DNA of 64,000 nucleotides from Pomacea canaliculata (taxonomy: Eukaryota > Mollusca > Gastropoda > Architaenioglossa > Ampullariidae), in assembly GCF_003073045.1 (NCBI RefSeq), contig NC_037590.1, positions 11,861,042 to 11,925,041 of the forward strand, in the 5' to 3' direction. This document shows, in pieces, positions 8,095 through 64,000 of the stretch. The notes below the pieces were generated by a model. The model was not told the DNA's origin and made no database searches. It worked only from the letters and a program-made list of their open reading frames with translations. The first letter of the stretch is position 1. Each line of letters opens with the position of its first letter. Made by a program: the position numbers and the translations under genes.

Positions 8095-11000
8095 CCGAGG
8101 TGCCGGGGGACGCATCCATCCACAAAGAGCCTGAGAGGTCCCTTTGTGATCGACACCCTGCTCCGCGCCCAACCTTTCACGGTTTTCAACCTGGGGCTGC
8201 TGGTCACCGCCCTGTGTGTCATGGTGGCGGTGCTACAGTACACGTGAGTATCGCAGGCCTTGGGGCAAAACAAAATATGGAAAAAATGTTCATTCAGATG
8301 TAGATCTAGTAATACATCTCATATATATGATTTTTCTGCCTCTGTGTACGTGTAAAAGGGCCAGGATTTAAAAAGCAGGGCGTTTTACGGGATTCGAATG
8401 ACAACTGTCATAAAAAAACAATTGTATGTATATTAGATGTTTAAAGGAAAGTTTACAGTTACGAACAAAAACTATGCATCACCACGTTGAAAGCACTAAG
8501 GCTGTGTTATGCTGTAACACGACTCTTAACTTGGTTTACGTGTATAAACTGTCAGTTAAGACGGTTTCATATATATATATAATTTAATTTAGAAATAGAC
8601 CATGTTTGTCGGGGAAAATAAACACTAAGATCTCCATGTCTTCGAGTGTATAAAGTCATTCACTCTGGTTCACACCCTGGTCTTTGCAGAATGGCACGCT
8701 ACAAGACCAGCACGTGGCATAGGCTGGGGTACCCAGGACCCACCTGCTCATCCATTCTGGGTAACTACTGGGAGGTCATGATGGAGGTGAGTAGTCTACA
8801 AACATTCACAAAATCACAATTCCACTCAAAGAAGAACTAGACCAATGTATTTCTTTCTGTGTGATAAATTTCTTTACATGCTGAAGTTTAAGTATTTCCG
8901 ACACGTATTAGTCACGACTCAGAACAATGACTCGAGCTGCCATCTTAAGAAAAGGCGAGAGAAATAAAGTTGTCCCCTAACACATAACAACACTGAGCGC
9001 ATCTTGAGAGTTTTCACAGGCCGTGACTAGCAATGATGACCACTGGCAATCATGTCTCGTACAATCATTTCACGGTTGATGTGCGAGACAACAGAGCTTC
9101 GAGGACACAAACTTTGCTCAGACTTCGTGTCACGCTTCCTGGGTATGTGTGGTGCAAACATTCATTGAAGGTCTCTGGGTAGGTGTGTTACAAACATTCA
9201 AGGTCTCTGGGTATGTGTGTTACAAACATTAAAGGTCTCTGGGTAGGTGTGTTACAAACATTCAAGGTCTTTGGGTAGGTGTGTTACAAACGTTCATTCA
9301 AGGTCTCTGGGTAGGTGTTAGGTAAACCACCTTCATTCTGTAAGCTGTCTGGGTACGCGTGTTACAGGGAAGCCTGAGGCGCTGCGTTGAAGCGATGGCA
9401 CGTGCTGTACGGAGATATTTTCGGGTGAGTATTACAGTGGGAACTGCCTTTTTCTGTACTTTTTGTCAAATCATTTTTGTGTTCAATCCAGCTTCGAATC
9501 GTCACTCCCTAAAAAGGAATTAATCTTATCCATGGATGACTGACCCTCTTCTGTTCTTGTAGCATCAGCAGAAAGACAGTTAATTAGTGAGGTCACACTT
9601 GATTACAGACACTTTTAATTGACGTCTTGGCCGAGCTGTTAACAACGTAAACATATTCCTATCCAATCCTGGTATCTGGTTTTCACTGCTTTTGGTAAAC
9701 CACTCAGACTGAGGGAAATAATTTCTTGCATTGAGCTTTCCCAGTGACGAGAAACAAAATTGCATCCATCCTACAATTTTAAATTAAAATGAACACGCTA
9801 GCATCATTCTGCAAATAGAAGTTATCTTCAAGCTTTTTGGTATATTGATATGGGAGAGAGATCTGCCCTCTACCGCTCACGTGAAGCCGTTTCCCAAAAT
9901 AAAAAATTGAGAACTTCACAACGAGGTTTGTAAGTAGTTGGGTTACATCCTGAGTGAGCACCGTCATGTTTATTTGCTGCGTGTGTTGAATGTTTGTTCT
10001 GTTGATGTTTATGGCTGCTGTGGGATTTATTGACTGATGAATATGTCTTGACTCTTTCTCGTGAATGTCTGCCTTGTGTGGTCTCTTAACTTTGATGTGT
10101 ACGTGTAATATCTCATGGCCATTGACGTTTGTGTGTGTGTGTGTGTGTTTTTGACATAAAATTCTTACCTTTGTTGTTGTTGTTTGCTTGCAGAATTCAC
10201 TTAGGCTTGTCACCTGTTCTTGTGATTTCTGATACAAGTTTGATAGCAGGAGTTCTGGAGAACGAGTCCGGATGCTTTACAAACAGATCCGTGAGTGACT
10301 TAACTTTCATATACGACAGCGAGAACACAGACACATAAACGTGTATGAACGAGCGTGTGCGCGTGCGTGTGTATATGTGTGACATAGAGAGAGAGAGAGA
10401 GAAAAAGAAAGAGATAAGAAAGAGAGAGAAAGAAAAAGAGAGGAAACGGAGAGAGAGAGAGATCTATTATTACTCGCGAACTATTGTTTATCTCGCCGTA
10501 AGTGGTAAGTCCCACCTCGCATGTTTATGATTATGTACGTGGACGTGCGCGTGAGGTTTGCTTGCACTTTGTTGACCGTATGCTCGCCATGAATACATCT
10601 GCACGTTGTGCGTGTGTGCGTGTGTGTGTGTGTGCGCGCGGCCAAACCATACTTACGTCACGTGTGTGCCTTCCTTAAGTGCAGGACCTCACCGCAGCGC
10701 TGAACTGTCCATCCCTGAAGTTCTCTTTGTATAACATCAAGGACTTCCAGGTGGCTGACCATGCGATACAATTTATCTTTTCTCTTCAACGAAGAGAATT
10801 TAGACTATGTAAGCAAACTCTGTTTTCACAGCTTGTGTTTGGTGCTTCGACTTCTTATGTGTGTGTGTGTTTGTGTGTGTGAACTAAAATTGACATGAGA
10901 ACGTGGAGAAGTAACCATTCAATTTTATGGACGCCATCATGTTCATCTGAATGTGCCTTGTTGACAAGGCCTGCACGCGCTATTCCAAAGTGTAACTTGA

Positions 11001-14000
11001 GACGACTGATGACATATAAGCCACCTCATCCTCTACGTTGCTGTGTCGTCCAACAGATGCTGCGGCATCTGAACCCTTGCGCCGGTCGCCTAGCGAACTA
11101 CCTGAACAAAGAGTTGCAGAGGACAGACACCGTCAGCCTTAAAGAGTGAGTTGGCTTTCCTGCCTGCTTCACCCCACAGCCTCCAACTGAACACCTGAAC
11201 ATCTGTTATTTCAAAGTAATGTAAATGACATTATAAAATTTAGCAAAATAAATGTAAAGGTAAGTCCGCGAGTACCACGACAATCTTCAGGTTTTTGTTC
11301 TCACTTGTTGATGAAAGTTGCATGATCTCTCTATTTTTTAATATACGCAATATGATGTGAAAATATTGTTTTCAAGAGAGAAGTATGTGCACGGTTGGCA
11401 AGCTAAGTCTGTAATAAATTTTACATCAGTTTAGGTCGCTAAACGTTTGATAATGACAGCAACTGTCGTTTTGTAATAATGCATCGTCTTGTTGCTGTAC
11501 ATTCAGAACGATCTCGTTAGTATCGTCTGTATTCCGATAAATCGGACATTGACCGATAACTGCGAATGACAGTAATGTGAATACAAGACACGGACACCAT
11601 GTTGCAGGTTTGTGACGTCATACGAGTATGACGTCATAGCGTCCATGTTGTTCGGCCTGAAGTTAGACCATCACTTTGACAGCAGCAGTGACCCGTTCTT
11701 CCGATGTATGACCTCAGCTTTCAAAACGGTCCCCGCGGAATATGAAGGGTTTCAGTTCCTTGTGAGTAGCCTGGTGTTTAAAGTCGGAGATTAGAAGAAA
11801 GCTATCTCACCACAGGTCTTACACACACACACATACACGTACACATACACATACATACACATACACACACACATACACACACACATACACATACACATAC
11901 ACATACACACCCAATGTCCACGTGTCTACCCGCTTTCTTTTCTTGCGCGAGCCAGTGTGCATGTCACAGATTGAGAGGCGGGACAGGAAGAGGGTGGCAA
12001 AATAACATAGAGGGTGAGCAGGTAAACAAACAAGGAAACAAACACACATACATACAAACAAACAATTGCTCGACATGTAATGCTGAACAACCAAATAGGA
12101 GCTTCCTTTCGCACTAAGGTAGGCGTACGTCAGCATGCATCGGTGCTGCTGATATCTTCTTGGAGAACGTCATGCTCGAATCTCTCCACGACCACCATAC
12201 TTCTGGTGGAAGACCGATCTGCAACCTACGCTATGCAGATGACAGACCTGTTAGCAGGCACTAACAAACAACGCCAAGACCTCAGAAACAGACTGACAGA
12301 CAGATCAAATGCATATGAAATGGAGACCAGCACTGTAAAGAGCAAAGTCATGGCCAATGGCAGCGGCAAAGCAGAGATCTTTATGGACGAGGTACAGGTT
12401 GAAGAGGTAAGCAGCTTCAAGTACTTGGGAGCCCTTCTCTCCAAGGACGGCAGCTCCAAGCCAGATGTCCGCCTCAGGATTGCAACAGAACAGTGGCAAT
12501 GGCTAGACTATAGGAGCTGCAAAACCATAACAAGCTGTATACATCTCTGGTGGTAACGATCCTGCTCCACGGATGTGACACATGGACTCTGCTCGCCGAA
12601 ACAGAAAGGAGAATCCAGGCATTCGAGAACAAGTGCCTGAGGAGGCTGCTCCGCATCTCATACAGACAACATAGAACCAACGACGTTGTACGAAACAAGA
12701 TGGTCACACACGTAGAACATCAGGAGCCTCTACTTTCAACAGTCAAGCCAAGTAAGCTCGTCATGTTTGGTCATGTGACCCGGCACGACATCTTGGAGGG
12801 TAGTCGATGCCGCGGAGGTCAGAGAAAGCACCGGATTACAAACGTCAAAGACTGACTGGACGTCCTGTACAGGACATGCTGACTATCGCCCACAATGGGC
12901 AAGATTGCCGGACCCTGTCATCTGCCTCGTCTATCCATGTGCTCCCCCCCCCCCCAACGCGAGGTGCCGGGCAAGGGATGACTGATACATAATAGCTGTT
13001 TCTTGCAAGTTTTCAGTCTACACTCTGTGCAGCCGACATGAAGATGCTCTTTGGCTACGTGCAGTGCGCAGTCCACAATCGAAGTGAACATAGAAACGTC
13101 CGGGTGAGTAGCGGATGGTGCTAGGCGAGCGGTGTGCTAGTGCTAACGCGTGGGGTTAGTGCTGGGTGAGTAGCGGGTGGTGCCAGCAAGTACAACGATA
13201 ATGCTAGGTGAGCACGGTGCTAGTGTCGGGTGAACATGACCTATGACGGTTTAACATGCTGGCAGTGTCACACGATGGATGTCTCATGAAAGCTGAATAA
13301 TATAACTGACAGATGCAGTGTGTGTGTTACGTGGTGTATGAGGACCATTGACGTGACGAGACAAAAACCAATACTGCTCAATCGTAATGGAGGGTGTGTG
13401 GGAAGGGGGTGGGAAAGGAGTACATATGACAACATCTACCCGTGGCTCATTCATATGTTTACCCAGTCTGTTACCTTACCCAAGCTACACAGATTGCCGT
13501 GATGCACGTTTCATGGTCTCTATGTACACTCAAACCCCTGCAGATAAAAAAAAAAATCTGCTTCGCTCTGGGGTTTTTTTCTCTAAAAGGCGGATGTTGT
13601 GTTTGATCAAATGAAACAGAAGCCTACACAGAAGTTTTTTAAATCTAAAAAAAACTGAATTTTCTGTAGGATTTTGCTTGTTTTTTTTTCCCCCGTTTCT
13701 TCGTGCTTCCTTTAGTTGGATAACGCGTGCACCGTTTCATCATTTTTCAGAAATTTCTGCTTTGCCATTTCAGTAGTTAACTTCATCTTCTCAGCGGCTT
13801 GCTTATCTGGAGATTAGTCCTTAGGAGATTAGTCCTTTGGAGATTAGTCCTTTCATTTTATCCTTTGGTTCCCTTGAACACGTTACGCAGGTAGGCAGAC
13901 GGGCACTAATTACGAGGATAAATTGTTTACAGGAGGCGGGGGATTACCTGGATTTGCTATTACGTCGAGGAGCTTCATTATCTCCTGTCACCCTTCCGCC

Positions 14001-17000
14001 CTACGGTGAGTCAAGGCCGCCCCTCCCAGTGTCCGGATTGTTGTGTGATGGTGTCTTTGACTACACAAACACAAGGTAGTACTGAGGAAGGTCAAAGGTC
14101 CAAGGCCTATGACCAAGAGGGTCTATACTCGATAGGTACTGAACTGTAAGTAGCTGTGTGTGTGTGTGTGTGGTTGGGGGGGTGATTTTCCATATTGTCG
14201 ACCTTTTGCTCTGACATCGAACCCGCCGAACATCAGAATACTGATCGTACTGTATACATAGCAGATAGCCGACTAGTCAGGTCACTGGCATCCATCCCGA
14301 AAGATCCTCCGGTTTCATCTTTGTGCGGTGCAGCAAGCTCTCCCCAATGGACCCAGCTGTCGTGAGTAGGTACCGTACCTGAGTCCTGAGGTTTTGGGAA
14401 AGGTGTAAGTGTGAGGGGCAGGAGATCGGCAGTGTCCTCACAAAACAGCTGGCCCGAGAAAAGTCAGGTCTCGAACGCAACTCACTCCCCAAACGACCTT
14501 AAAAAAGGTTTGGGACGACCTTTACCACCTTTTTTTTTGACTGTATGCATCGTCAAAACGACAGTTTGCTATACGCACCTCGACATATTCACGATGTCCA
14601 CATATTTGACATATTTCCGACATACTTCAAAATGATCCCTCATGGGGTTGGTGTATTTTATGACACCACATGCTTGACGTGCGCAGAACTGAGCTGGCCT
14701 GAGGTGTACGGCAACCTGCTCCTGTGGATCCTGCACAGCCACCAGACGATGATCAGCACCCTACAGTTCGTCATTTACATGCTGGCGCATAACCCCGAGT
14801 ACCAGACCATGGCCTTCGATGAGATGAAGTTCACACTAGGCAAAGTACAAAAGAGAATAGTCATATCAGACGCTTTTTTTCTTCTGAGTTAATGCATCAT
14901 ATTTTTTCTGTTCCTGTATTTTTTTATGTGTGACTTGGATGTGAGACACTTGTTACTTGCAAACGTGAAATGCTTAGCTTTAGTATTGAGAAAATCAAAG
15001 ATGAAGAGTATACTTTTATAGTTGTTCGTTACCTTATAAATGTATCATATCAGCATGGGAGGCGCTAGCTGACAGACTGCAATATTTAAATTGCAACGAA
15101 TGAAAATTGAACAAAGCTTTCCTAGTAGAGAAGGAAACGAAAAACGAACATACAAAAGAAGATACCCTTCATAAAGGAATGAGTTACTACTTCAAATGAT
15201 GAAGTTAACGAAAATGATTTGGGATTTGATGAAAAGGTAATGCTCCCTCCTTTAGAAGTTTGTCTGGACGGCGTCTTCCACCACTGGACCGTTAACAAAC
15301 CCTCTCCCAACTCTTGTGCAGGATAACCTGACCTATAATGACCTCCAAGAACTTGCTGTGCTGGACAGCGTCATCCTGGAGACCCTCCGCTTGTTCTCAC
15401 CTGTGCAGGAGTAAGTCACCTGGGCGCTTGTCTCCTCCTGCAAATAAAGTCTTGCGCATAGACTTCGTTCATTCTCTTTTCTTCAAGCGCTTGCGTCCCT
15501 TGTTAAAAAAAAGGTTACACCTTTTTCTACTTTAAGTGATTAGTCTGGACATCCTGACTTTTTTTCGTTAGAAAGAAATCCTCCCCCCAAACGCTACCAC
15601 CAAATGAACTCACCGAGAGAAACCCGTTGTTCGTCATTAGTGGTCTTTTCCCCATTACCTTACTTCCTTTTCATTGAAGTTTTTTCCCTTAAGCATGACC
15701 AGGCCTCTAAAATGTCATATTTGCAGAATATGGCGAAGGTCCAGTTCCGAAACAAGGATTTTTGGCATAGCTTTTCCCAAGGACGTTGACATTCTCATCC
15801 CTGTTGACCTGGTTCACAGCAGCGACAGCAACTTTTCGCACCCTGATGACTTCAAGCCAGAAAGGTATTACTTCGTTTGTGCGAAAGATTGGCAAATGTT
15901 TGCTCCATTTTCTCCATTTCTAAGGTTTGAGAGCTAGGATTATTTTTAACTGAATTAGCATAATTTATCACTAAATATCAATTCCACCCATAAAAGTAAT
16001 CACTAGTCAGATCCTTTCCAAACAAAGGAAACAGTAAATTGTGCCGAAACCATACAATCATAAACCTAACCATGCACCCAACCAAAATAATGCTGAAATT
16101 CATACTTGATACCAACAACAACGATATTTACGTGAAAGGAATAAATCTTTGAATACTTAAAAGCCTCTTTCTCTAAAGACTTGCCACTGCCCAGAAAATG
16201 TTTGTATCAGGATGCAACAACGATTAGCAACAATGTCTTAGCTGGACAGGATTCAGAGAACCAACATCATCAGGTTTACTACCTAGTACAGACCGTGCAA
16301 GGTCCTGGTACTTCCTGATGTACGGATGTAAGACGTAGACTCTGCTTGCCAATAAGGAGATGAGAATCCAGGCATTGGAGACCAAAGGCCAGAGGAGGCG
16401 GCTCAGAATCTCGAATAAGGAAAGCAAAAACCTGTAACTTCTAGGTATGGAAACACGGTCGTCACCCTCGTGTGGCACCAGAAACCCCTTTTCACAACAG
16501 TGGTCTGGTCATATGACTCGGTTCGACACTCTACCTTCCATTCTTCAGGGTAGATTGACAAGCTTAAAAGAGTTTATTGGCCATTCAGAACCTGCTCCAG
16601 ACAAACTTCAGTTGTGAGTCTATCAGCCGAAACGTCTGTCCCCGATGACTAGTACCGCAAGACTAACTGTTTAGTTGGGCTAGTCAAGGAATTATATATA
16701 TGTGTGTGTGTGTGCAGATGGGGCTTGGGCACCTTCGGTCAACTGCCGCACCCAGCCTTCCTGCCCTTTGGCTACGGCCCACGTGCCTGCATCGCATCGG
16801 ACCTCGTGCTGCTGCAACTGAAGGTGGCGCTCGTGCACTGCATGCGGCTCGTTGAGTTCGACGTGGCCCGCCAAGACCCTCTGCCTCCCAATCAACATCT
16901 TGAAGTAAGTGTCAGTCGCAAAGTCGCTTCTGGAACTGAAATTATAATTTTTTTTTTAATTTCTACCAGAAAATATTCAACCCCCGCCCTATCTGGGGCC

Positions 17001-19192
17001 TGTAGTTAGGAAGTGATGGTAAGTCGCTGCCAGGGACAACGTGGGAAACCAAGAGCAAGCGTCTTTTCTCTGTGGCAGTGTCCATTGTACTCCCACCCCC
17101 AAGGAAAAAATCCCTGGATGTTGCTTTACCGCCGAGGTAGAAGTTTTAAAGCAGTGGCAAAGATTGTCTGGTATAAAGTAACAGAAAGGAGCATCTGCGG
17201 AGTCTGGACAGTGCTTAGTAACTACAAGGATGAGACTTGATTTCTAGGGCAAGGACTTAGCATCGCTTCATTATTACGGCCAATAGGGTCCGTAAGTTTG
17301 AGCTATGGGGTTCATCGTATGTTTGTGCTTTGTTCTCGGTCACGGTTGTTTTCATTACGCGGACGCCACTCTGGTCATTTAGAGGCAGTAGAAGACCCGG
17401 GGTGGTTTACCTCCGCAAATGGCTTCTTTTTGACGTCTCCATTTTCCACGTGAGAGTCACAAACCGCCGTCTGCTTGTATTTATTGTGTTTGTTTCTGTA
17501 AACAAGGGGTTAAGGGACTGGATGACCGATCGACTGACAGACAGGCTGATATTAGAATAAAGAAAGCTTTTTCTCGTTTATGCGTGGATGTTGTGTGTGT
17601 GTGTGAAAGAGAGAAAGAGAGGGAAGGAGAGGTCCTGTTCCCTTGGTGAAGTCTCGGACTGCAGAGAATCACGTCAACCTGGCTGCGAATGTAACATACA
17701 CGTTTTAACACATATGTCAACATACATATTATAACACAAATATAGCAAACACACTTTCTCTTGAATCAATGTAGGTGAAGCTGGGAGTGGGAGTGACAAC
17801 CGAAGGCATTTTGCGACCTGCGACCTCAGTAAAAGTACGACTGATTTTGAGGGGGCCTGGCTTGCCCCCGCCTCCACCTACACAACAGATACCAATGTCC
17901 GTTCTACCTCCCTTTGGCGCTGCGACTCTTCAACCTTCTCCTGCTCCACCTCAGCCTAGTCCTGTATCCGTGGCACCAAAGGTGAGCTCGCCATTCTACG
18001 CGTTCTAAGATCTGTTGTACAAATGTACAAAGTATGAAAACTATCGAGTAGTCTGAGGTCAGCTCCCTGTCCTTGCCCCTGGATGTTTAGTTGCTGCCGT
18101 CCTTGTATCAACATACAGAACAGCTCGCTAACAAACAACACTGAATACTTCATTCATGCCAACTTGTGAGTGGGGGCCTGCGTGCATGAGTGTTCGCACT
18201 CGTACGAGACAGTCAGGCCTGAGCAATGAGTACTGCAGCAGCCGCAGCACGAGGCAGGAAGAGCGCGCTGACGTCAGCACTTCGATAACTTCAACGCGGC
18301 CTTCTTTGATGTGGAATTGCATCACATGCCATAGCCCCTCGTACCAGGCTCTGTCTTTTTCAGTCAGTGAAGTTGTGGTAGAGGTCCCTTTGATGATGAA
18401 GATACTTTTCTCTAAGGATGCGACAGCTGAAGATCTGCTCAACTGTGCATCTACGTGGTCTGAATCCAGCCTGCAACTCTTTTCAAAATCAGGATTTAAA
18501 AAAAAATCCGTAGTATATTCACATAAAGTAGTGCTTGCAGTAGAGCGCTGCTGTTAATAATATTTTAGTTTGGCGTTTCCTATTTTAGTTGTTTGGTATT
18601 TGATCAGACATTTTGTTTTCATATAGTTGGTAATCAGGATAAATGTAATTTTGAAATGTAGTTAACAGTCGTAGTGGCAGAAATATCAATGATGGAAGTG
18701 TCAGTAAAAAATATTCCGTCGTGCAGGTCATCCAGACACCTCAAGAGACGCCACCCTCTTTCAAGCCCCCTATCTCTGCGCAGCTGATTGAAACCGATCA
18801 GGGTGTACAGCCGGTAAAAACTCGGTATGTCCAAGGAAGCTATTTGTAGGTTCTTACAAATGTCGGCAATTGAATGTATGTACACACACACGCGCAAATA
18901 ACAAATAACGAGAAAGGCAGAAAGCGAGCGTTGTATTGCATTCAGAGAGCGAGATTTCCTTATCCACCTCCTGACCTTCAGGTATCTAACGTCGACCCTC
19001 CCAGCGTCGCTTGACCCCGACACACGCCGTGAGCGGAAGTGGAAGGAGGATAAGCAGCTGACCTCTCGCTGGCGTAAGGACGCTATAGTCTCCGAGGTTG
19101 ACACCAAGGAGGTAGGAAAGCAAATGCTGCCCTCCCTCGCATCACGCGCTTTGATGGTTAAGCAGGCTACCCTGGCCACACTCCTCCTTTAA
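8095..19192 (+). CDS. Cytochrome P450, CYP3-clan / thromboxane-synthase-like, with C-terminal extension
   Basis: Exons: 8095-8243, 8690-8786, 9368-9424, 10194-10290, 10685-10750, 11057-11145, 11608-11761, 13017-13103, 13933-14005, 14687-14844, 15322-15410, 15727-15864, 16718-16904, 17775-17981, 18727-18824, 18982-19111 (or on to a stop at 19190-19192). In order: hydrophobic anchor FNLGLLVTALCVMVAVLQY; hinge LGYPGPT; GLSPVLVISD; FTNRS; EYDVIASMLFGLKLD; I-helix; ExxR as ETLR (15379-15390); PER region FKPERW; heme loop FLPFGYGPRACIA with the Cys at 16788-16790. Phases agree at nearly every junction except 9424/10194. The C-helix (WxxxR) exon was not found between 10750 and 11057, and the start codon is unknown. 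The I-helix lacks the usual AGxET and has HSHQTMISTL; the heme motif ends in Ala, not Gly. The last exons leave the P450 fold and become proline-rich. Clan is inferred from motifs; substrate unknown. The enzyme may be an isomerase-type or inactive P450. Confidence 0.87.
9135..9325 (+). repeat. Intronic minisatellite, ~32-bp unit, about 6 copies
   Basis: Imperfect tandem units built on GGTCTCTGGGTAGGTGTGTT followed by ACAAACATTCAA lie in a P450 intron, just left of the acceptor of the exon at 9368. Units vary by small indels. No coding role. Confidence 0.85.
10384..10462 (+). repeat. GA-rich simple repeat in a P450 intron
   Basis: An interrupted (GA)n / GAAA-rich purine tract lies in the intron after the exon at 10290. 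The reverse strand is pyrimidine-rich. It generates spurious open frames on both strands. Confidence 0.85.
11821..11910 (+). repeat. (CA)n / (CATA)n microsatellite
   Basis: About 90 bases of ACAC and ACATAC repeats lie 60 bases into the large P450 intron, left of the LINE fragment. Confidence 0.92.
12135..12990 (+). mobile_element. Decayed non-LTR retrotransposon (LINE) 3' fragment
   Basis: Broken frames read as the C-terminal half of a LINE reverse transcriptase. In order: a remnant of the catalytic YADD region (ATYAMQMTDLLAG, the acidic pair lost or frameshifted); VSSFKYLGALLSKDGSS; ILLHGCDTWTLLAETERRIQ; FENKCLRRLLRISYRQH; FGHVTRHD; and the terminal TGRPVQDMLTIAH. At least three frame changes separate the pieces. 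The 5' part with the endonuclease is absent, as is usual for 5'-truncated LINE insertions. It sits in the P450 intron 11762-13016 on the same strand as the gene. The motifs match the RT C-terminal region common in mollusc and cnidarian LINEs; clade is not determined. It is a dead copy. Confidence 0.85.
13100..13260 (+). repeat. Degenerate GTGAGTAGCG-type tandem repeat
   Basis: Starting at the donor of the exon ending 13103, units like GGTGAGTAGCGG-TGGTGCTAG are repeated imperfectly. Several copies contain a donor-like GGTGAGTAG, so decoy 5' splice sites follow the true one. Confidence 0.55.
16205..16625 (+). mobile_element. Second decayed LINE 3' fragment
   Basis: Frame-broken text resembles the same RT C-terminal segment as at 12135-12990: pieces equivalent to the YGC..WTL, IQAxE and FGHV/VRHD region, with stops in every frame. 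It lies in the P450 intron between exons 15727-15864 and 16718-16904. It is older or more damaged than the first copy. Confidence 0.6.
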
Positions 19193-19203
19193 TTCCCACT
19201 CGC

Positions 19204-20808
19204 ATGCCACGTGCAAAGGACACAACACCACAGCAGCCCCATTCAAAACTGCCAATGAGCTACTTGCCATGTTCTGTCGATTCCAACTTACTGGTGGCGC
19301 CGTATGAGGGAGGTGAGGAGGAACACCCCCTTTTTAGAGAATTCCGGGACGTGCAAGATATGGCGCAACACCTGCTAGAAGAACTGGACAGCGTGCGACC
19401 AGGCGAGACCAGGCCTGAACCTGGGCTGCTCCTGCCAAGAGAAACTGAGAGGGCAAGATCAAGTAGCGACCATTTATTCCTTGACATTGACATCTCTCGC
19501 CAAACACTTGAAGTCGAGAGTGAGTCCTCACTCCACCAGTCACTTTCGCTCTACTTCAGCGCCATTGACTTGTCCGACGAAAGTCCCGCTGCCCTTGCAG
19601 AGGCCGAGATCACGAGGACCTTCGACTCTCAGGCATCAGAGTACCAGACGTTAGAGTCTCTCCTGTTGGAGAATTTGAACGCCCTGTACAATCGCCTCAA
19701 GTGCCTAGGTTCCCATTTAGTGATCACTTTACATATCAGCGTTGAACCTGAGGAAGGCCAGGACGGGTTTGAGAGTCGCAGCCTTGCGTACCCACTCCAA
19801 GGGCCACAGACCGCCGGCGTCGACACTCGTTTGCCGTTCACAAGTCGGGCAGCCAGTCAGATACCCTGGCAAGCGACCACAAAGACAAAGAAAGTACAAG
19901 CGACTCCGAATGAAGAGCAAGCGAAAAATAAGGAAATAATAATGCAGGTGGGTGTGCCTCGGTCCGGGCAAGATGTCTCGCAACCCTTTCAATCAGCGTT
20001 AAGTATCGGCGGCACGCCACCCTCTGGGAAGTCAATGGCAGATGGCACACATCCCTCTCTGAGAATGCCAGGGGCAGACGACTCGCAACCCGTTGGGAAG
20101 TCAATGGCAGATGGCACACATCCCTCTCTGAGAATGCCAGGGGCAGACGAGTCCCAACTCTCTGGGAAGTCAATGGCAGATGCCACACATCCCTCTCTGA
20201 GAATGCCAGGGGCAAACGACTCGCAACTCTCTGGGAAGTCAATGGCAGATGCCACACATCCCTCTCTGAGAATGCCAGGGGCAGACGACTCGCAACCCGT
20301 TGGGAAGTCAATGGCAGATGGCACACATCCCTATCTGAGAATGCCAGGGGCAGACGACTCGCAACTCTCTGGGAAGTCAATGGCAGATGCCACACATCCC
20401 TCTGGGAGAATGCCAGGGGCAGATGACTCGAAACCCTCTGAGGGCATGTCAATGGCGACTGCCACGCAATCCTCCCATAAGTGGCACGTAGACAAGCCGC
20501 GCGCTACTGACAGGGCATTACTCGTCCAACTTCTCAAAGAATCCCAGATTAGAGGAGGGTCTTCTGCAGAGGATCTCGCAGCCCCATGGGACAAAGGCAC
20601 TTCGGGTTATTTCAAAAGACCCTGGGGTAGGGCTTCTGGAAAGCAGGATCACTGGCCTCCTTTGAGAAAACCGGAAATTCCAGAGAGATTTCGTTCTAAT
20701 ATACGGTTTCCTGACACACAAGTCCAGACAGACAGAGGGGCTTCCACCTCATCTAGCCCCAGCTTGACAACAAAAGCTGGAAAGAGGACGATCCAATTCT
20801 ATTGTTGA
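19204..20808 (+). CDS. Repeat-containing disordered protein segment, probably the P450 C-terminal tail
   Basis: A 534-codon open frame starts with ATG at 19204, twelve bases after the stop that ends the preceding P450 exon in another frame. It can be joined to the P450 by splicing GAG|GTAGGA (19111) to ..CCACAG|CAG (19234), which is phase 0, or by one lost base near 19185. Residues 1-240 are acidic and mixed (YEGGEEEHPLFREFRDVQDM, ESESSLHQSLSLYFSAIDLS) with some helical character. Then come six 23-residue repeats of the form GKSMADxTHPSLRMPGADDS and a basic end. No known catalytic domain is seen. It could instead be a separate gene with its own start. The frame is undoubtedly coding-like, because the repeats vary mostly by codon-level changes. 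Function unknown. Confidence 0.65.
   Translation: MPRAKDTTPQQPHSKLPMSYLPCSVDSNLLVAPYEGGEEEHPLFREFRDVQDMAQHLLEELDSVRPGETRPEPGLLLPRETERARSSSDHLFLDIDISRQTLEVESESSLHQSLSLYFSAIDLSDESPAALAEAEITRTFDSQASEYQTLESLLLENLNALYNRLKCLGSHLVITLHISVEPEEGQDGFESRSLAYPLQGPQTAGVDTRLPFTSRAASQIPWQATTKTKKVQATPNEEQAKNKEIIMQVGVPRSGQDVSQPFQSALSIGGTPPSGKSMADGTHPSLRMPGADDSQPVGKSMADGTHPSLRMPGADESQLSGKSMADATHPSLRMPGANDSQLSGKSMADATHPSLRMPGADDSQPVGKSMADGTHPYLRMPGADDSQLSGKSMADATHPSGRMPGADDSKPSEGMSMATATQSSHKWHVDKPRATDRALLVQLLKESQIRGGSSAEDLAAPWDKGTSGYFKRPWGRASGKQDHWPPLRKPEIPERFRSNIRFPDTQVQTDRGASTSSSPSLTTKAGKRTIQFYC
20026..20440 (+). repeat. Coding minisatellite, 69-bp unit x6 (23-residue repeats)
   Basis: Six consecutive 69-bp units encode GKSMADGTHPSLRMPGADDS plus QPV or QLS. 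Two end types alternate in a pattern (QPV, LS, LS, QPV, LS, KPS) that suggests a higher-order duplication. The last unit degrades into a related MSMATATQ segment. Confidence 0.93.
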
Positions 20809-21035
20809 ATCTTTATATAGTTTCGTACAACAATCATCTATATTAGCACCGAGCTTGGCAACACAAAGCCAGAGAACGATCGGAATCTGTGGCTCAATCT
20901 GTATACGATGCAGTAAGAAAATCATCGATATTAGCACCCAATTGGCAAAAAAGCCAGAGAACGATCAGAATCTGTGGCTCAATCTGTATACGGTGCAGTA
21001 AGAAGATCATCGAAATTAGCACCAACGTTACAACA
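20765..21035 (+). repeat. ~88-bp repeat x3 whose reading frame slips between units
   Basis: Three units each end in a TTAGCACC-like string (about 20848, 20936, 21021). In unit 3 the frame reads ESVAQSVYGAVRRSSKLAP, in unit 2 ESVAQSVYDAVRKSSILAP, in unit 1 NSIVESLYSFVQQSSILAP. Each unit lies in a different frame, so one base has been lost per unit. This argues that the stop at 20806-20808 is not the original end and that the tail continues into 20974-21522. Confidence 0.7.
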
Positions 21036-22420
21036 GATGGCCACAACATTACCTAAAAAGATAGGCCTTTCACGTCGCGCAGACCAATTTAAGGCAAAGG
21101 AAAGCAGTCAAGATAAGTTCGAAGATCATGAAGAACTTACAGAAGAAGAAAGCCCTCCAGATGATGAAGACACTATATCAAACGAAAGCACTCCAGATGA
21201 TCTTGCAGAAACCAAAGAGAAAGAAATCTCTTCAGACGATCTAGATGAAACTATAAAGGAAGAAAACATTCAAGTTGATAATGAGGATGCCAAAGAAAAA
21301 GAAATCCCTTCAGATGACTTTGATGAAACTATAAAGGAAGACAGCCCTATGGCTGATATTAAGGGCCCTGAAGATGATGCCAAAAAGAAAAAAAGGCATA
21401 AAGATGATGCTAAAAAGGAAAAAAGCCCTAAAGATGATGCTAAAAAGGAAAAAAAAAGACTCAAAGATATCGCCAAAGAGGGAAAAGGCCCTAAAGATGG
21501 CGCAAAAAGGAAAACATTCTAGCTGATAATGAGGAGGCCAAAGAAAAAGATATCCCTTCAGAAGACTTTGGGGAAACTATAAACGAAGACAGCCCTTTAG
21601 CTGATATTAAGGGCCCTGAAGATGACGCTAAAAAGGAAAAAAGCCCTAAGATGATGCTAAAAAAAAAAGCCCTAAAGATGATGCTAAAAAGGAAAAAAGC
21701 CCTAAAGATGATGCTAAAAAGGACAAAAGCCCTAAAGATGATGAAAAAGAAAAAAAGCCCTAAAGATAGCGCTAAAAAGGAAAAAGGCCCTAAAGATGGT
21801 GCCAAAAAGGAAAACATTCAAGTTGAAAAAGAGGACTCCAGAGAAAAAGAAATCCCTTCAGATGACCTTGGGGAAACTATAAAGGAAGACAGCCCTATAG
21901 CTGATATTAAGGGCCCTGAAGATGAGGCTCAAAAGGAAAAAGGCCCTGAAGATGATGCTCAAAAGGAAAAAGGCCCAGAAGATGACGCTCAAAAGGAAAA
22001 AGGCCCAGAAGATGATGCTCAAAAGGAAAAAGGCCCTGAAGATGATGCTCAAAAGGAAAAAGGCCCTGAAGATGATGCTCAAAAGGAAAAAGGCCCAGAA
22101 GATGATGCTAAAAAGGAAAACGGCACTGAAGATGATGCTAAAAAGGAAAAAAGCCCTAAAGATGATGCTAAAAAGGAAAAAAAGCCCTAAAGATGATGCT
22201 AAAAAGGAAAAAAGCCCTAAAGATGATGCTAAAAAGGAAAAAAGCCCTAAAGATGATGCTAAAAAGGAAAAAAGCCCTAAAGATGATGCTAAAAAGAAAA
22301 AAAGCCCTAAAGATGATGCTAAAAAGGAAAAAGAACCTAAAGATGGCGCCAAAAAGAAAAAAAAGCACTAACGACGATTCCAAAAAGAAAACAAAGTCTA
22401 AAGATGTTGCCTAAAAGGGA
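20974..22420 (+). pseudogene. Lys/Asp/Glu-rich repetitive tail, frame-broken continuation
   Basis: The first open piece (20974-21522) reads from AQSVYGAVRRSSKLAPTLQQ into an acidic region (EELTEEESPPDDEDT) and then decapeptides. A second piece (about 21740-22190) contains about seven GPEDDAQKEK units and then SPKDDAKKEK units. Later pieces read the same repeat in shifted frames. Breaks fall in A-rich runs (about 21520, 21660, 22190). KEKSPKD is KSP-like, reminiscent of neurofilament or MAP-type phospho-repeats, but I do not claim homology. The segment follows the previous open frame with only repeat DNA between. It is probably one long disordered tail with indels in the poly-A parts, either assembly errors or real decay. 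Confidence 0.6.
21355..22420 (+). repeat. 30-bp tandem array encoding KEK-SPKDDAK / GPEDDAQ decapeptides
   Basis: About 25 or more units are built on GATGCTAAAAAGGAAAAAAG plus CCCTAAAGAT. Two variants form blocks: GCTCAAAAGG...GGCCC(T/A)GAAGAT at about 21930-22110, and GCTAAAAAGG...AGCCCTAAAGAT elsewhere. The period of 30 keeps frame, but A-run length differences shift it. Confidence 0.93.
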
Positions 22421-23631
22421 AGAAAATCCCTAGAATGTGGGTAAAAAAGAAAATATATATCTGCAAGCGATGCCCCCCAAAAAGACAAAAAAAAAGCCCT
22501 AAAGATGATGTTAAGGATATTCTTTACAAAAAGGGATATTTTACAAGTAATTAAAAAGGAAAAGTTTCTAATGATAACACAAAAAAGTAGAAGAAATATC
22601 TGCGGATGGTGCCAAAAATAAAATAATGTGGAAAACGCTTAATATGATTCAAGAAGAAGTGAAAAGAGAAACCCGCAAGATAGTCTTGAAATAAGGATAA
22701 AATGAGTGGTGGCAGCCCTAAAGAAGATGCCCAAACGGTAAACAAGGAACATGGGAAAATGCCAGAGATCACTATCAGAAATAAATTACAACTGACAAAA
22801 GAAGAAAGAATTACCAAGACGAAAAAGAGGTGACAGAGTGGAAGAAAAGGAAACAAAAGATCTTTAAGTATGTACAGTCAGTTGCTAGAGCTAAACAATT
22901 TGTCTGCAGAGGACAATGAGGAAGAAAAGTTGAAGGAATGAGAAGAGACCAAAACCCATTCACATGCTGAACGATCAGATTCACTGCTCAGGTAGTCCAT
23001 CTTGGCGTGATACGAACAGCATTAGTAGTCTTAGGGAAACTTTAGACCTTCCAGTAGCAACAGCAAATTGAAGACCATTCATGACAAAAACCCGCATCTG
23101 TTTTTTGTGTTTGATCACGCGTGCGTGCGTGTGTGTGTGTTGGGTGGGGGGCTTGACCCTGACTCCAGTACCAAGTTCTCTGATGAACAGGATGAAGAGC
23201 AGGATGATGGCCACCCACTGCGCCTTCCTTTCATTTCCTCCACGGTTAAAACCTGAGTTGAGCCACATATTTTTCTCTCATTCCTTTTTTGCTAATTTCA
23301 GGTTGTCGTTCCCATTTCTCTCATTCCACCCACCCAACCATAACTCATTTCGTTAGATTACAAAATGTAACTGTTTGCAGGTAAATTGTCTACTTTCCTT
23401 CGAGCGCACAAACCTACACTGCGTGCATGCGTGAAGCATCGCTGTAAACATGTAATTTTATAGCCTTTCCAGAAAGGTTAAGCTTACCCAGAAGATTCTA
23501 AAGCTGTAGAGAAACTGATGTGGTAGATGTGTGAGCTAACAATATACCTAGCAGCATTCCACACAAGCGTGATCAAAAACAAACAAGAACGAACAAATAT
23601 AGACTGGTATTAACCAGCACAAAAATACAGC
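22421..23631. other. A-rich remnant and spacer between the tail repeat and innexin B
   Basis: To about 22940 the plus strand stays purine-rich with decayed echoes of the tail (KDDVKD-like, GSPKEDAQ-like) but no frame is kept. Beyond that I see no gene. A short (GT)n-like run lies near 23120-23145. Parts from about 23500 rightwards match the left flank of innexin D. Confidence 0.5.
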
Positions 23632-23975: not shown

Positions 23976-26900
23976 GCACCTCTTCGGTGGAGGCGCCATT
24001 TATAACGAGCGGCTTGGCCTTGTACAGGCGCCACAGCTGCACAAGCAAGTCTGTGATGACGACGTTGTTGGAGTTTTTGGCGATGACGCGCAGAACAAAG
24101 ATGCCGTCATCTCTCAGGTAGTTGTCTGCAAATCTGGTGGCCAGGCGCCGCTCTTCTTCTCCGCCACCCAGCTCCCCTGACGCCTACAACATACAGCTGT
24201 CTAGCTCTAATACCTGTAATATACAGCGGTCTAGTTCTAATATCTGTAATGTACAGCGGTCTAGTTCTAATATCTGTAATGTACAGCGGTCTAGTTCTAA
24301 TATCTGTAATGTACAGCTATCCGGTCTCTAACATCAAACATCAAAGACTTTGAGATAAAGTACGAGTGCAATGTACGAGTACGGTTTGCGCTTTACGTCA
24401 TCGGCTGCGCAAAGGCGGACTACTACAGACGGCGACGCGTAAATCGAGATCCACAGAATATTTTGAAAAAGAACCATGTATGAAATAATTAGAAAATAGA
24501 TCAGATAAGTAAATAACGACATGTTCCATGCACAAACGAAAGAATCACAGTTCATTGAGTAAAATGACCAAATAAGAAAAATCCTCAAAAGACTATTTGC
24601 AACAACTACTTGACACGAAAATTCACTATCACAACTGACTCATGCCAACCCACATTCTCATCCTCACTTCACCAAATACCTTGAGGATTTTCTGGACGTA
24701 TTGCGCACGATTGTCTGGCAGTAAGGCCCTGATGAACCAGAATAAGAAGCTGGACAAGGTCACGATGGCAACCATGACGAACCAGAACCACAGGAAGCTG
24801 AAGATCTGCTCGTTGAAAAGGTTGATGGGCAAGGCACACTGAAAGGTCCAGTCCTGCGAGTTTTGCAGCTGCCTGATCTTGAGATCACACATCGTCACCT
24901 GCAGACACCACAGACAAGCACCGAGTGAGCTACGTTGTCTTGAGGCCCCGTGTCATTGTTTCCTCAGCTGCTTCACGGATTTAAAGAAAAAAATTCGGCA
25001 GTTCGATGATCCTCTAAATGCAAGAGCTCGTGTGCGCAAAGCGTGTACTCCCTCACACGCACGAACGCACAAGACAGAGGGGAGATATAAAGGGGCTGCA
25101 CTCATGGCCGCAAGGGAAACTCGTCGGTTAGAGTTATCTTTCGTAACGTGATGCTAGGAAACGACATGACACAAGCAAGCGAAGGTGATCGTCTGAGGCA
25201 AAGTGGACAATTTTGTTCTGCAATTAACTGTCAGAGCGCCAGGTTTAAATTAAGTCCTGAAAGAAAACATTTCCACTCCTTCCCAAAGGACGACGAGAGG
25301 TAAGCTACGTATTTATTATCAAATTACGATCGATGAGTGTACTGTAGTTGAGAGCAGTCTAGTACAACGCGGTTGCTCGATTACTATGGTGGTTATTAAA
25401 ACGGACTTTATTGATTATACTGTGAAACTGAGAGATGAGTTTTCATTTATCCGATGACGAACCTATTTAACTTTGTTATAGTATTATCATTTAAGGTATT
25501 CGTCACTGGGGGGAGGTGTTGGCTATAACGTTTGACTTAAGCACATAGTCTCATAATGCTATTACTTGTTAATTTTGCATTACTACAATATTTGTTATTA
25601 ATATATTGAAAAAATTATTACAACAGGTGCAAAATATGGATGAATTTTACAAGAAGAAAATATTTTGACCATCTTACACTGTCTGATGTGTATAGAAAAG
25701 GTGATTGTCTTTGTTCTGATCATTTCGAGGAAAGTCAGTACAACTGTCCAACCCCAAAAAAAGTCTTGTCTGGAATGCTGTACCCACAGTTTTCTCCATT
25801 CCAAATCCACCATGCAAGGTTGATAATTATGATTATTAGATTATAATATATTCCCATATATAGAACTAAGCCATATTTTACCATCATAGGCCTTTGTTTC
25901 TGTCAGGATTTCCCAGACAGCTGTAGTCTTGAATGGTTTCTAAATCATGTCTTCTTGCTATTTTTCATTCATTAAGAAAATATTTATAAAGGAAGGAGTG
26001 ATATTGTCCAGAATATTATAAGCATTTTTATACATCTATTTGCAGAAGAACAAGCAGATATTGCAGTTGAGCCTGCATGCTCTAGAACTGGGCCAGATGC
26101 TCCTACAAAAGCTGAATTAAAGCTAAATCTCAGTTGATTCGACTTCTGCGGGAAGAGCTAATAAGCATTGACCTCTGCTGTCCACTTGGTGCATGTGATC
26201 TGAAAGGGAGTGTGATTAATCTATTATCAATGTTCACTTTAATTTTTCTCTTAAAGATAGCTGTGTTGTTTTTTGACAAAGGAACAAAAAGAAATTAAAA
26301 AAATGTTGAAGTTACATCATTTGTTGCTTTTAATCTAAAGGAATTTAAAATCGTTTTAGAACAGTGTGAAAGAAAATGTTATAATCTTTTAAAGTACATG
26401 TGTGAATGATCCTTTTTGAGTATCTGCTTGCTGTATATTTCCTAGTAAGCTTCGCTGTTATCTTTAAATTGTCCACCAATGTTCTTACAATAAGGGATAT
26501 GAAGGTATATATATACATTATTAATAATAGTATTATGATTTGTTATTTATTATGAGTATTAGTAGTATGTGATTTATGTGAGAATTTATTGCTGCATGCT
26601 TATATGTAAACAGAAATCTATGCCTCAGTATGTGAGCAAGTCTTCTGAATGGGGGCATGTTTGTGTCATGTTTATATTCATGTGTAAGTCTGTTTTTAAC
26701 TGCTTTTCTTATAGTCATAAATTCTCATAAATTAGATTTTTATGCATTTTAAATGATGCACATTTGTGCTAGAGTCAGCAGTCATACATGTATTCAAACT
26801 CTCCCAAACTACCCTCATCTAAGCAATTCCCATCAATAAAAGACACAAAAATCTGTTCTTAGATAACAGTCATTTCATATCGCAAACACATAGACATTTA

Positions 26901-27609
26901 CTCCAAAGATAAACACTGCTAACGACGACTTTGTTTAGCAGTGCTTGATAGTAGCAGCTGTTGCGTAGCATCCCGTTTCGAAGGGACGCAACTGCGTCAC
27001 TACTTTTCTTAACAAGTAAAGACAAAGAAGGAGTGCAGCCTCTCTATATCTAGCCTCTCTGGTAAAGATAGAGATGCTATCTCTACCACTGCCACATCTG
27101 AGAGCTTAGATCACCCTAAACAGACCTCTGAGGTTGGCAGATACTGTAAAAGACCCTTCCCTGACTCCAGTCCCTGACTCCGGTCCCAAGAACACAAGCC
27201 ATCTTGCTGGTTACCTTGGGAAAGTACGGTGACTCCGCCCAGGTGCGCGTGTAATACAGGCCGGAAAGTAACTTAAAGCCGAACAGTGAGTACCAGTTGC
27301 CCATGAAGCTGTTGAGGAGGAAGAACTGGCTGATAATGTTGATGCAGTAGAGCAGTTTGATGAAGATGTACAGCCCCGACAGGTAGGAGCCGTGCCGTTT
27401 GCCAAAGCAAAAGCAGTACAGTTTAGAGATCTGCAACAACAGGTTTGGAGATAGGGGATAGTTACAACGAGCCTGGTCATTTCAGACAGCGGCGCGGTTA
27501 AGAGATTTTCAATTAGGCAGCCATTCATTCGCGCGCGCGCACACACACACAGTTCATGTGAACGATATTTACCAAAATATACAGATCAACGTTAACAAAG
27601 TAACGGATT

Positions 27610-27662
<53 letters not shown>

Positions 27663-29718
27663 AACAAAACGAAGAAAAAAACAGTCGGGATGGCTGTTTC
27701 CTGCTCTAACTAGAACCTCACTAGCCGTGTACACGCCGGATGCTTCTCTCACCTTCTGTCTGATTCGCATCATGAGGTTCCACTGGTACTGGCGGTGAGC
27801 ATCCAGCCAGCGGTCCATGTAGCTGGCGATCTGTCTGATCGTCTCCGGGTACTTGCCTCCTTCGCCCAGCTGCGCCTCCAGCGTCAGGGTCACGATCTGC
27901 ACAGGACGCACGTGCTGTCAACATGACCCACCCGCTGCACGCGCCACCTTCGCCTAAGTCACACTCTAACACCCTCGTCATTTCCCCTCGTAAAATACAT
28001 AAAAAGCAACTATACGCCAGGAAAATGTAACTGTTCTCGCGCGCGTATGCACATATAATCAGACCACGAAGGGTGGGAACGTCCGACTAGAATCACTAGA
28101 TGACCGTTTAAATTTAACAGCTTTTTCCATATGAACAAAAATTTATATTAAAAAACATAATAATAACTTAAACTTTTAGGGACAAGCAATGAACGCCTCC
28201 ATTACGTGATAGACAGGATGTATACACATGACAGGACATACACGTATATATGCTTTTTCGGTCCGTCTGCGTGTATTGCAGTGACTCACAGGACAGGCAG
28301 TGCCAGGCAGGCTGGTAGCGTACACGTAGCCAAAGAGTCAACACGCTGTGGCGAAACTACGGCTTAATCAAATATAGAAGACTAATTTTTTGGATGATAA
28401 TTTTATGACCCGCTAATGATGCTATAAATATGAAAATAGCCTTCGGCCAAAAAGTTTCGTCACTCCTTGCATAAGCCCTCCCCCGGCCTACCCCAAAGCT
28501 CGCTCACCTTGTCCAGATCGACACCCGAGGCGCCAGACAGCAGCCTCCAGATGATGCAGGGCAGCTTGAAGAGCAGCGCCATGAAGAGCAAGTGATGGGC
28601 ACCCACTGGTAGTAGCTCAGCTCTGCCTTCCTCCTCATTTCCTCTATGGACGGCACCCGGTCCTTTGACGGCACGTAGTAGGTGTTGTGTACCCAGCAGT
28701 ACGTCTTGGCGTAGGACCTGCGGAGGAGACCACACATACACCCACACTGGACACGCACAGCGGCAAAGTAGGCTACGGGTAGCATGGTGATGAGACCATC
28801 ACTGTGGGTGTCGTCACAGTTTAATGTCGACTTTGCCGATGATTTTAAGTCTATAATCTTAGATTAAGGACAAAAACGGTTTTAAGGACTAATGGGATTC
28901 AATGAGGAGGTGAAACTCTGTGCAAGATATTACTTCCCCAAATGTTCACGTCACATTTAGCTTAATGAATCCTAATAAATGTTCCTCGCCCTCCCGTTAG
29001 TCGTCGCCTTTGTACTCCTGTATAATTCCCACCTCTGTGTTGTTGGTCTCTTTTGTGTAGGTTTGTATTTCGGGATCGGACGAGGGCTGGTGAGAGAGTC
29101 CATTCACCCAAATTTCGGAAGATATTTGCACTGATAATTTGCACCCAATAAGTAAATAAGTAAAAAATAAGTACCCAATAAGTAGAAAAAAGCATTTGCC
29201 TCTCACTAATATTTTAATCATGAAGTATCTATACTCTGCATCTGTGTCTATTATATTATATTTTAACCAACATTTATTTTCTAGATATTATTACTTCGTG
29301 AGTAGATGGGTGTCTGAAATAATTCGATAAGGGGATGAATAGTTTATTTGCTACCATCATTTGTTGCTTGAAGTAAGTTGCTCTAGTGCAGTACACAAGG
29401 GTAAATAAAGTCTTGCCACTGTTATTGTTATGCAATAAATGAGCAAGTCAGATCGAAAGGAAGAAAGAAAGAAAGGAATGGAGAGAGGAATAAATGTTGA
29501 AGGGACTAAAAATATAATCACGTGATGGCGCCGTCGTTGGAAACAGAGGCAGAGAGGCACTCTATGGGGTACCCACGTACTGCCCGCCCCCCACAAAGAC
29601 TGCGAAGATGACGAGCATGGTGGTGGTGTACAGGTGGCTCAGGCGGTCCGCGCGGTCGTCGTCGTTGCTACCCTGCAGCTTGGTGTAGGTGGCGAAGCCA
29701 GCAACGATGGCATTGATC
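23968..29718 (-). CDS. Innexin B, six coding exons, 5' incomplete
   Basis: Transcript-order exons: 29718-29522, 28717-28508, 27896-27753, 27430-27215, 24898-24673, 24176-23968. Content in order: INAIVAGF..SNDDDRADRLSH and TM1 ending GGGQYVG; first-loop SYAKTYCWVHNTYY, YYQWVP and TM2 (CIIWRLLSG); cytoplasmic helix MDRWLDAHRQYQW; TM3 (GLYIFIKLLYCINIISQF); second loop MCDLKIRQLQN and FQCALPINLFNEQ with TM4; tail LRDDGIFVLRVIAKNS to a TGA at 23968-23970. Both cysteines of each loop are present. The donor of the TM4 exon is TTTG|GTGAAG, which gives the phase-1 joint KVFG|EL. Lesions against innexin D: one base lost in the G run at 29566-29569, and one at about 28591-28592 (AAGTGATGG versus AAGATGATGG). 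The first donor (AC|GTGATT, 29521-29520) is weak. The ATG exon is not found. The large intron 24899-27214 holds the THAP insertion. Working gene with base errors, or young pseudogene. Confidence 0.9.
24186..24325 (-). repeat. 30-bp intronic minisatellite next to the last innexin B acceptor (~4 units)
   Basis: Units of the form ACAGCGGTCTAGTTCTAATA plus TCTGTAATGT (plus strand) begin about ten bases upstream of the acceptor at 24178-24177. The same array, longer, is in innexin D. In the gene sense each unit reads TACATTACAG, which is acceptor-like. Confidence 0.93.
25083..25103 (+). repeat. Left terminal inverted repeat of the THAP insertion
   Basis: It pairs with 27031-27051 in inverted orientation with two mismatches in 21. 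It ends in CTGCACTC. The first ATG of the THAP ORF is 48 bases further in. Confidence 0.6.
25151..26136 (+). CDS. THAP-type C2CH zinc-finger protein, nested antisense in an innexin B intron
   Basis: Exon 1 is 25151-25299 (ATG at 25151 or 25166, donor GAGAG|GTAAGC), exon 2 is 25627-25818 (acceptor CAACAG, donor CAAG|GTTGAT), and a possible exon 3 is about 26046-26136. Exons 1 and 2 join in phase to give a full THAP domain: C22-x4-C27, FHSFPKD with the conserved Pro, W54, C79-x2-H82 (CSDHF) and a closing MLYPQFSPF in place of the usual AVPTLF box. THAP domains bind DNA through the zinc site. Exon 3 gives a short acidic EQADIAVEPACS tail but needs a phase different from exon 2 as written, so the C-terminus is unsure; reading on from 25818 gives a stop within 30 bases. 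It is a domain-only product of about 110-140 residues. It could be a transposon-encoded regulator, a truncated transposase or a host gene. Confidence 0.72.
26160..26960. other. AT-rich interior of the THAP insertion without a gene
   Basis: No coding-like frame is visible. The DNA is AT-rich with short ATTATT runs. A transposase catalytic core would have to lie here in an intact P-like element, and it does not. Confidence 0.5.
27031..27051 (-). repeat. Right terminal inverted repeat of the THAP insertion
   Basis: It begins GAGTGCAG on the plus strand and mirrors 25083-25103. Just outside lies a further imperfect palindrome (GGTAAAGATAG ... CTATCTCTACC, about 27060-27086), which may be part of the element end or an older insertion scar. 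Confidence 0.6.
27612..27661 (+). repeat. (GTT)n microsatellite, about 16-17 units
   Basis: Pure GTT run in the innexin B intron between exons 27430-27215 and 27896-27753. Innexin D has only a short GTTGTTATTACTATT at the same place (about 62330). In the gene sense it is (AAC)n and would read as poly-Asn. Confidence 0.97.
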
Positions 29719-63335: not shown

Positions 63336-64000
63336 CTGTCAGCGCATGCACACCGTCATATGATAACTAGGAAGGGGGCTATAGTGTTGGTCTCCCTTCC
63401 CTAACGGATCGAGCGGACGCGCTATTAAACGCACTATCATAAGGTGCAATGGGTAAATGTGTGTAGGAGCTAGGAGTTGAGGTGAGGTCAAGTTGGTGAC
63501 ACAGTGGTTGGCCCTGGACGGTCGTAAGACGTCAGGATGGACAACATCCCAGTAAAGTCTCACCGCCCTCTATCTCCATGGAATCAGTTAGGACTAGGAA
63601 TCGCTGGCCACTTACACCAACGTGGACCTGACGGAGGGTTAGGTCGGCATGTGGAGCTATTGTATCTTTTGTAAAATGATTTGTAAAACTCTTGATCATT
63701 AATAACTTTCTTTACACTAGATTGCTTTGAGTTGTTGGAGACGTGCGCTGGGGGCTCTGAGTCGTTTGTATCATGATTAGCAATTTAGTGTAAGTGGTCG
63801 TGAAGTAGATGTCGGTGTGAGTTGGTAGAGGTACCCAGAGTGTGATTACCATGAGGCAGCGACAACTGCAACCCTCCTACCATCCTCGCGTGCTCATTCC
63901 CCGAGGTTCACGATACAAGGAGGAACACAACCCCCATGTTCCCCTATTCTGAACGACTTGTCTGATGCCCTTAACCTCATCTGGACATTTCTGTCTAATG
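63336..64000. other. Window end upstream of innexin D, no gene seen
   Basis: This is intron or promoter side of innexin D (minus strand). No clear ATG exon or other coding frame is visible. Confidence 0.4.

Follow-up and report, generated by a model that had tools for sequence, protein, structure and literature searches.

A diverged CYP3-clan P450 gene of Pomacea canaliculata that appears to run into a long orphan tail

Animal cytochromes P450 are generally compact, and their chains stop shortly after the last strand. Can such an enzyme carry several hundred further residues at its C-terminus? The question is raised by a locus on chromosome sequence NC_037590.1 of the snail Pomacea canaliculata. 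The window analyzed here is a stretch of 64,000 nucleotides (positions 11,861,042-11,925,041), and all coordinates below are window positions. An initial annotation had proposed that a P450 gene in this window might continue into a repetitive, charged tail of perhaps 800-1000 residues. The finding is real at the level of sequence, and its extent was partly misread. On balance, and with moderate confidence, we favor a single protein that joins P450 and tail over two genes, over a shorter tail, and over a gene in decay.

What kind of P450 is this? The plus strand at ~8.1-18.0 kb holds a diverged gene of the CYP3 clan. Its joined exons 6-15 score 157.8 bits against the Pfam p450 family (PF00067), where the cut-off is 22.8. 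A search of PDB sequences, with exons 3-6 and 8 left out of the query, gave CYP3A7, CYP3A4 and CYP3A5 as the best solved relatives; these three fill the first 14 places among the best 60 of 283 matched sequences.

The names of the P450 motifs used here (I helix, ExxR, PER, heme loop) are general knowledge. The K helix has its ExxR as ETLR in exon 11a (15322-15410), and the PER motif is present as PE(R)W across exon 11b (15727-15864, with ..FKPE(R)) and exon 12 (16718-16904). The heme loop had been placed at 16767-16796, in exon 12, and FGYGPRACIA is indeed read there, with its cysteine retained and the last G of FxxGxRxCxG replaced by A. The oxygen-binding motif of the I helix, (A/G)Gx(E/D)T, is not found. 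Here, exon 10 (14687-14844) has HSHQTM, which aligns with AGYETT of CYP3A7 and places a glutamine at the acid position. Because the I helix is altered, altered or absent monooxygenase chemistry is plausible, and oxygen activation of the ordinary kind may have been changed or lost in this protein. The snail protein shares with CYP3A the Pfam p450 match, ExxR, PER and the heme-loop cysteine. It differs in having HSHQTM for AGxE/DT, CIA for CIG, and a long C-terminal tail.

Its distance from other P450s of its own genome is also considerable, with 24-31% identity for most of the longer alignments listed; short matches to the heme loop reach 58% in a whole-genome search. The genome searched comprises 440,159,624 bases in 24 contigs, with the window on the first of these (45.4 Mb). 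According to PMC6129957, this assembly was made from PacBio reads with smartdenovo and its bases corrected by Pilon with Illumina reads, and 157 P450 genes were counted in it, 56 of them CYP3A.

Does the reading frame of the enzyme lead into the tail? Twelve exons between 11057 and 20808 (exons 6-16) join in phase to give 2,985 nt, or 994 codons, in which the sole stop is the terminal one. This frame splits into 351 residues of P450 (to LILR) and 643 residues of tail. Exon 13 (17775-17981) encodes the last P450 beta segment, VKLGVGVTTEGILRPATSVKVRLILR, and then a proline-rich linker, which exon 14 (18727-18824) continues with VIQTPQETPPSFKPPIS. Exon 15 (18982-19111) encodes a basic segment containing DTRRERKWKEDKQLTSRWRKD, and exon 16 (19234-20808) encodes a 524-residue orphan tail that ends at TGA 20806-20808. 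Exons 13 to 15 have GT/AG borders and join in the phases first assigned to them. The peptides of the predicted joined protein include YLTSTLPASLDPDTR and SMADATHPSLR. Within exon 16, six 23-residue units keep a strict 69-bp register at 20026-20439; the whole 69-bp array covers 20015-20465. The 534-codon frame that had been announced at 19204 is open over 19204-20805, and counted from stop to stop it has 548 codons from 19162. By contrast, six P450s of the same genome whose profile match reads in a single frame end 4-6 residues past that match.

Is the tail coding at all? When only one of its repeat units is kept, the last-exon frame has 1,272 nt and is open for 424 codons, while 1,000 dinucleotide shuffles of that 1,272 nt gave an open maximum of 266 codons and a mean of 129. 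The open frame of the last exon far exceeds chance. A second test used codon usage, learned from 35 P450 segments (6,209 codons, with 7 segments repeating another) and from one innexin frame that is itself slipped near one end. The score of an exon is the number of background positions that reach its best 30-codon window, the background being 68,060 window positions from three stretches taken as non-coding, on both strands. All exons from 2 on were taken in, except 3, 5 and 9. Among the P450 exons, the number of equals was 9 for exon 10 and for exon 12, 93 for exon 11a, 175 for exon 2, 176 for exon 11b, 595 for exon 7, 1,425 for exon 6, 3,423 for exon 8 and 8,674 for exon 4; exons 4 and 8 are not separated from non-coding windows. 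Exon 13 had 1,454 equals, exon 14 had 336, exon 15 had 20, exon 16 had 11 before its repeats and 1,232 after them, and a frame beyond the stop (20935-21519) had 182. By this measure exon 14, exon 15 and the part of exon 16 ahead of its repeats look coding, with values inside the span set by the exons of the P450 itself.

These exons bear directly on whether the locus holds two genes, one a P450 that closes with exon 13 or shortly beyond it, the other an orphan gene of its own that encodes the repetitive protein alone. The ATG at 19204 does open the 534-codon frame, reading through the donor at 17981 leads to a stop at 18006-18008, and no copy of the tail or the linker was found beside another P450 in the snail's own genome. 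Exons 14 and 15, however, have GT/AG borders, fit in phase, look coding and contain no in-frame ATG in their translations. Because of this last point, a separate tail gene would need its start codon inside exon 13, at ATG 19204, or at an ATG further on. Further, no AATAAA or ATTAAA on the plus strand starts at 17557-22549, which leaves a separate P450 gene without a canonical polyadenylation hexamer there. We consider two genes unlikely, if the least unlikely of the rivals.

Several observations weigh against a single protein. The absence of hexamers is unremarkable in 17982-20805, where 120 of 300 shuffles also had none; in 20806-22549 none of the 300 shuffles had zero, in a test that the repeats make unreliable there. 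In the codon-usage test the proline part of exon 13, although continuous with the P450 strand, is not separated from non-coding sequence (4,499 of 68,060 positions equal it). Between the 69-bp units (five of the six), the proportion of nonsynonymous differences (pN, 0.069) exceeds that of synonymous differences (pS, 0.024), and these units show no amino-acid constraint. Nor was a relative of the tail found in the two collections covered, the snail's own genome and a set of prokaryote contigs. In the snail genome, where the search scores only its best candidates, no second copy of the tail appeared (one weak match besides itself, E 0.037) and none of the linker (one match, E 0.22); a pattern search of the prokaryote contigs hit 29 stretches, of which none was confirmed.

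Also unfavorable is the junction between exons 15 and 16. The acceptor at 19234 has 6 pyrimidines in 17, the lowest of the 18 listed, tied with an alternative 3 bases on; the acceptor of exon 9 has 7, and those of the other proposed exons have 7-13 of 17. Past the donor at 19111 lies an in-frame stop, 19190-19192, and ATG 19204 starts 12 positions beyond it. Were exon 15 left unspliced at 19111, the protein would end at this TAA, ~145 residues beyond the last beta strand, and the 1.6-kb frame would be a separate or a lost exon. The read-through, 19112-19189, is in fact the best of its six frames by codon usage. Such a shorter tail must be set against the donor at 19111, which is unremarkable, matching 6 of 9 consensus bases as several donors of the P450 do, and against the 548-codon frame, which would then need a gene of its own. 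Moreover, single-base slips occur locally, and one such slip within 19112-19192 would make exons 15 and 16 a single exon, which is possible. Between the splice, the stop and the merged exon, sequence alone does not choose; a protein that ends at the stop is to us the least probable of the readings weighed here. A shuffle test of the splice chain was given no weight. Of 200 shuffles, 24 produced an in-phase chain of one kind or another to the 19234 frame; in the real sequence the test picked up different chains that do not convince, because acceptor 19234 fails its pyrimidine rule.

The 5' half of the gene supplies the remaining difficulties. A possible exon 1 (8095-8243) with a hydrophobic, anchor-like segment, VFNLGLLVTALCVMVAVLQY, precedes exon 2 (8690-8786), which reads MARYKTSTWHRLGYPGPTCSSILGNYWEVMME and is weakly similar to CYP3A7 (~1 bit). 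No ATG lies upstream of the hydrophobic segment in the same frame. As assembled, exons 3 and 5 both depart from the frame of their neighbors by a single base. Exon 3 (9368-9424, 57 nt) gives a reading, KRWHVLYGDIFG, shifted by one base relative to exon 2; in L043, a P450 paralogue at C1:20.34 Mb, the corresponding exon measures 53 nt. Exon 4 (10194-10290) reads IHLGLSPVLVISD...FTNRS, and exon 5 (10685-10808), which carries helix C with WLTMR, slips directly before the W. A complete N-terminal P450 half in one frame is not found in this assembly, and the frame is clean from exon 6 onward.

Might the gene then be decaying, its P450 frame lost, its tail arrays degenerating, and its long open frame a remnant? 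In favor of decay are the frame breaks in exons 3 and 5, which lie away from long single-base runs, HSHQTM in the I helix, A for the last G of the heme loop, and nine frame slips at 20767-22412. Decay must, however, explain the 2,985 nt of exons 6-16 that are undisrupted. It must also contend with the neighbors. Each of the three innexin copies compared within the window (minus strand, 23980-29760, 34824-36060 and 60093-63400) changes frame at least once as assembled, inside a conserved stretch; the continuity expected of them comes from comparing copy with copy and from general knowledge of innexins. In the copy at 34.8-36.0 kb the frame changes between the readings GQYVGNPIECWTPAHFTG and AFIAYTKSYCWV; in the copy at 24-29.7 kb it changes at YYQWVPI and a second time in the first exon; and in the copy at 60-63.4 kb it changes in the first exon as well. 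The last P450 exon of L043 (reverse complement, ~7700-7760) also seems to shift its frame, next to a stretch of G and A. Against this background stand seven P450 matches in a single frame on the same chromosome, none of them with an internal stop. Because all three innexin copies also slip, we treat the slips of exons 3 and 5 as local background; they may be assembly errors, and by themselves are no proof of decay. By the same token, this background does not demonstrate an intact 5' half. A decaying gene seems to us quite improbable.

How far, then, would the tail of the favored single protein reach? Past the last beta strand it has 643 residues in frame, short of the 800-1000 first suggested. 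The arrays into which the 534-codon frame was said to lead do exist, and the frame itself stops at 20806-20808. What survives of the proposed long-tailed P450 is the twelve-exon open frame with its coding-like exons 14 and 15; its full extent depends on the array slips, and the 5' half is frame-broken in this assembly. Beyond the stop, on the plus strand, come units of ~85-88 bp (20832-21023), each of which moves the frame by one, an acidic, lysine-rich open frame of 195 codons (20935-21522), and a 30-bp array (21613-22453) that encodes KEKSPKDDAK-type decapeptides in slipping frames. Polyadenylation hexamers follow at 22550-22622 (ATTAAA at 22550, AATAAA at 22617), the first canonical ones after 17556.

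A model that follows the frame, with the clean parts of the tail itself as its training set, finds a peptide that continues to ~22.4 kb by way of the nine slips, through ARERSESVAQSVYDAVRKSSILAP units, the acidic segment and the KEKSPKDDAK-type decapeptides. A tail of ~1,000 extra residues needs all nine slips to be assembly errors. The array slips are located within tandem repeats or next to them, where short-read correction would be weakest. In the 19 of 27 anchored 30-bp units that were taken as clean, the 46 minor-letter cells fall 27, 5 and 14 times on first, second and third codon positions. Between three copies of a 111-nt repeat, third positions make up 10 of the 17 variable columns, and several changes turn D to E; pN is not consistently lower than pS. 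These patterns hint that the array frame once was, or still is, translated.

If P450 and tail are one protein, a single transcript would extend from the P450 as far as exon 16, and might be polyadenylated near 22.6 kb. The P450 would be anchored on the membrane of the endoplasmic reticulum (ER) like other microsomal P450s. Because the enzyme and its C-terminus would then lie on the cytosolic side, the tail would reach into the cytosol, a flexible arm rich in proline, serine and charge, longer still if the arrays are translated. We propose that it would most likely act as a spacer or tether, using low-affinity contacts to position the enzyme or gather it into clusters; phosphorylation at serine-proline (SP) sites might adjust these contacts. 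The initial annotation had suggested that such a tail could tether or phase-separate the enzyme. The neurofilament tails with lysine-serine-proline (KSP) repeats, likewise rich in lysine and acid with SP sites, offer a comparison only of how such an arm might work; the snail repeats have no family match, lie in slipped frames past an assembled stop, and belong to an enzyme gene.

Is anything of this kind known? No Pfam family was found in the tail pieces scanned, and in PDB no solved relative of a 339-residue linker-tail stretch was better than E 0.82. The literature on P450 C-terminal extensions, disorder, fusions and the molluscan CYP3 clan, as far as it was covered, yielded no animal P450 with such a tail. 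In CYP505 (P450foxy), CYP6001 (PpoA type) and CYP5619, as described in PMC4486971, the P450 domain is likewise continuous with further sequence. There, the partners are enzymes (a reductase, a heme peroxidase/dioxygenase), whereas the snail tail has no Pfam match in the pieces scanned and much of it is repetitive.

Taken further, a P450 of the snail lineage with an altered oxygen-activating site may have gained an orphan tail of 640 to ~1,100 residues, built from a proline-rich linker, 23-residue repeats and KSPKDDAK-type polyampholyte repeats, and may now act as a scaffold anchored at the ER, or as a tethered enzyme, rather than as an ordinary detoxification P450. This is a tentative suggestion, which we hold to be possible rather than probable. 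If true, it would illustrate how a scaffold-like arm can be added to a membrane enzyme out of non-homologous sequence. It would also raise the question of whether the altered active site of the tailed P450 still does chemistry. Such tails would also be easily cut or hidden by slips in the tandem arrays of long-read assemblies.

The remaining exons of the P450 are as follows. Exon 6 (11057-11145) begins with ATG and opens the uninterrupted 994-codon frame, exon 7 (11608-11761) reads FVTSYEYDVIASMLFG..., and exon 9 (13933-14005) reads EAGDYLDLLL... Between the last two, a candidate exon 8 (13017-13103, 87 nt) is not secure in its identity. The Pfam p450 score is 157.8 bits with it, in a longer protein, and 150.7 without it, in a shorter one. 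When the slot was filled for an equal comparison, the candidate scored 159.2 bits, a retroelement stretch 158.5 and made-up filler 154.5. Because the retroelement stretch does almost as well in its place, exon 8 is provisional only; since both of its ends are in phase 0, the frame stays open with or without it.

Two fragments in the introns of the P450, 12560-12659 and 16313-16412, are 78% identical and read as a retroelement of reverse-transcriptase type; an open stretch at 12118-12261 contains YADD. Some 400 bp upstream of the possible first exon sits a second 30-bp array (7551-7700), in phase with a 168-codon open frame that encodes KVPQDFQELN decapeptides. As for the innexins, the first and third copies share pieces that are ~85-93% identical, a partial duplication, and a further 30-bp array, TACAGCNGTCTAGTTCTAATATCTGTAATG, stands beside these duplicated genes with 4 copies at 24192-24317 and 14 at 60305-60739. 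A fourth innexin-like stretch lies at 351-914 on the minus strand and is 33% identical to the 34.8-kb copy.

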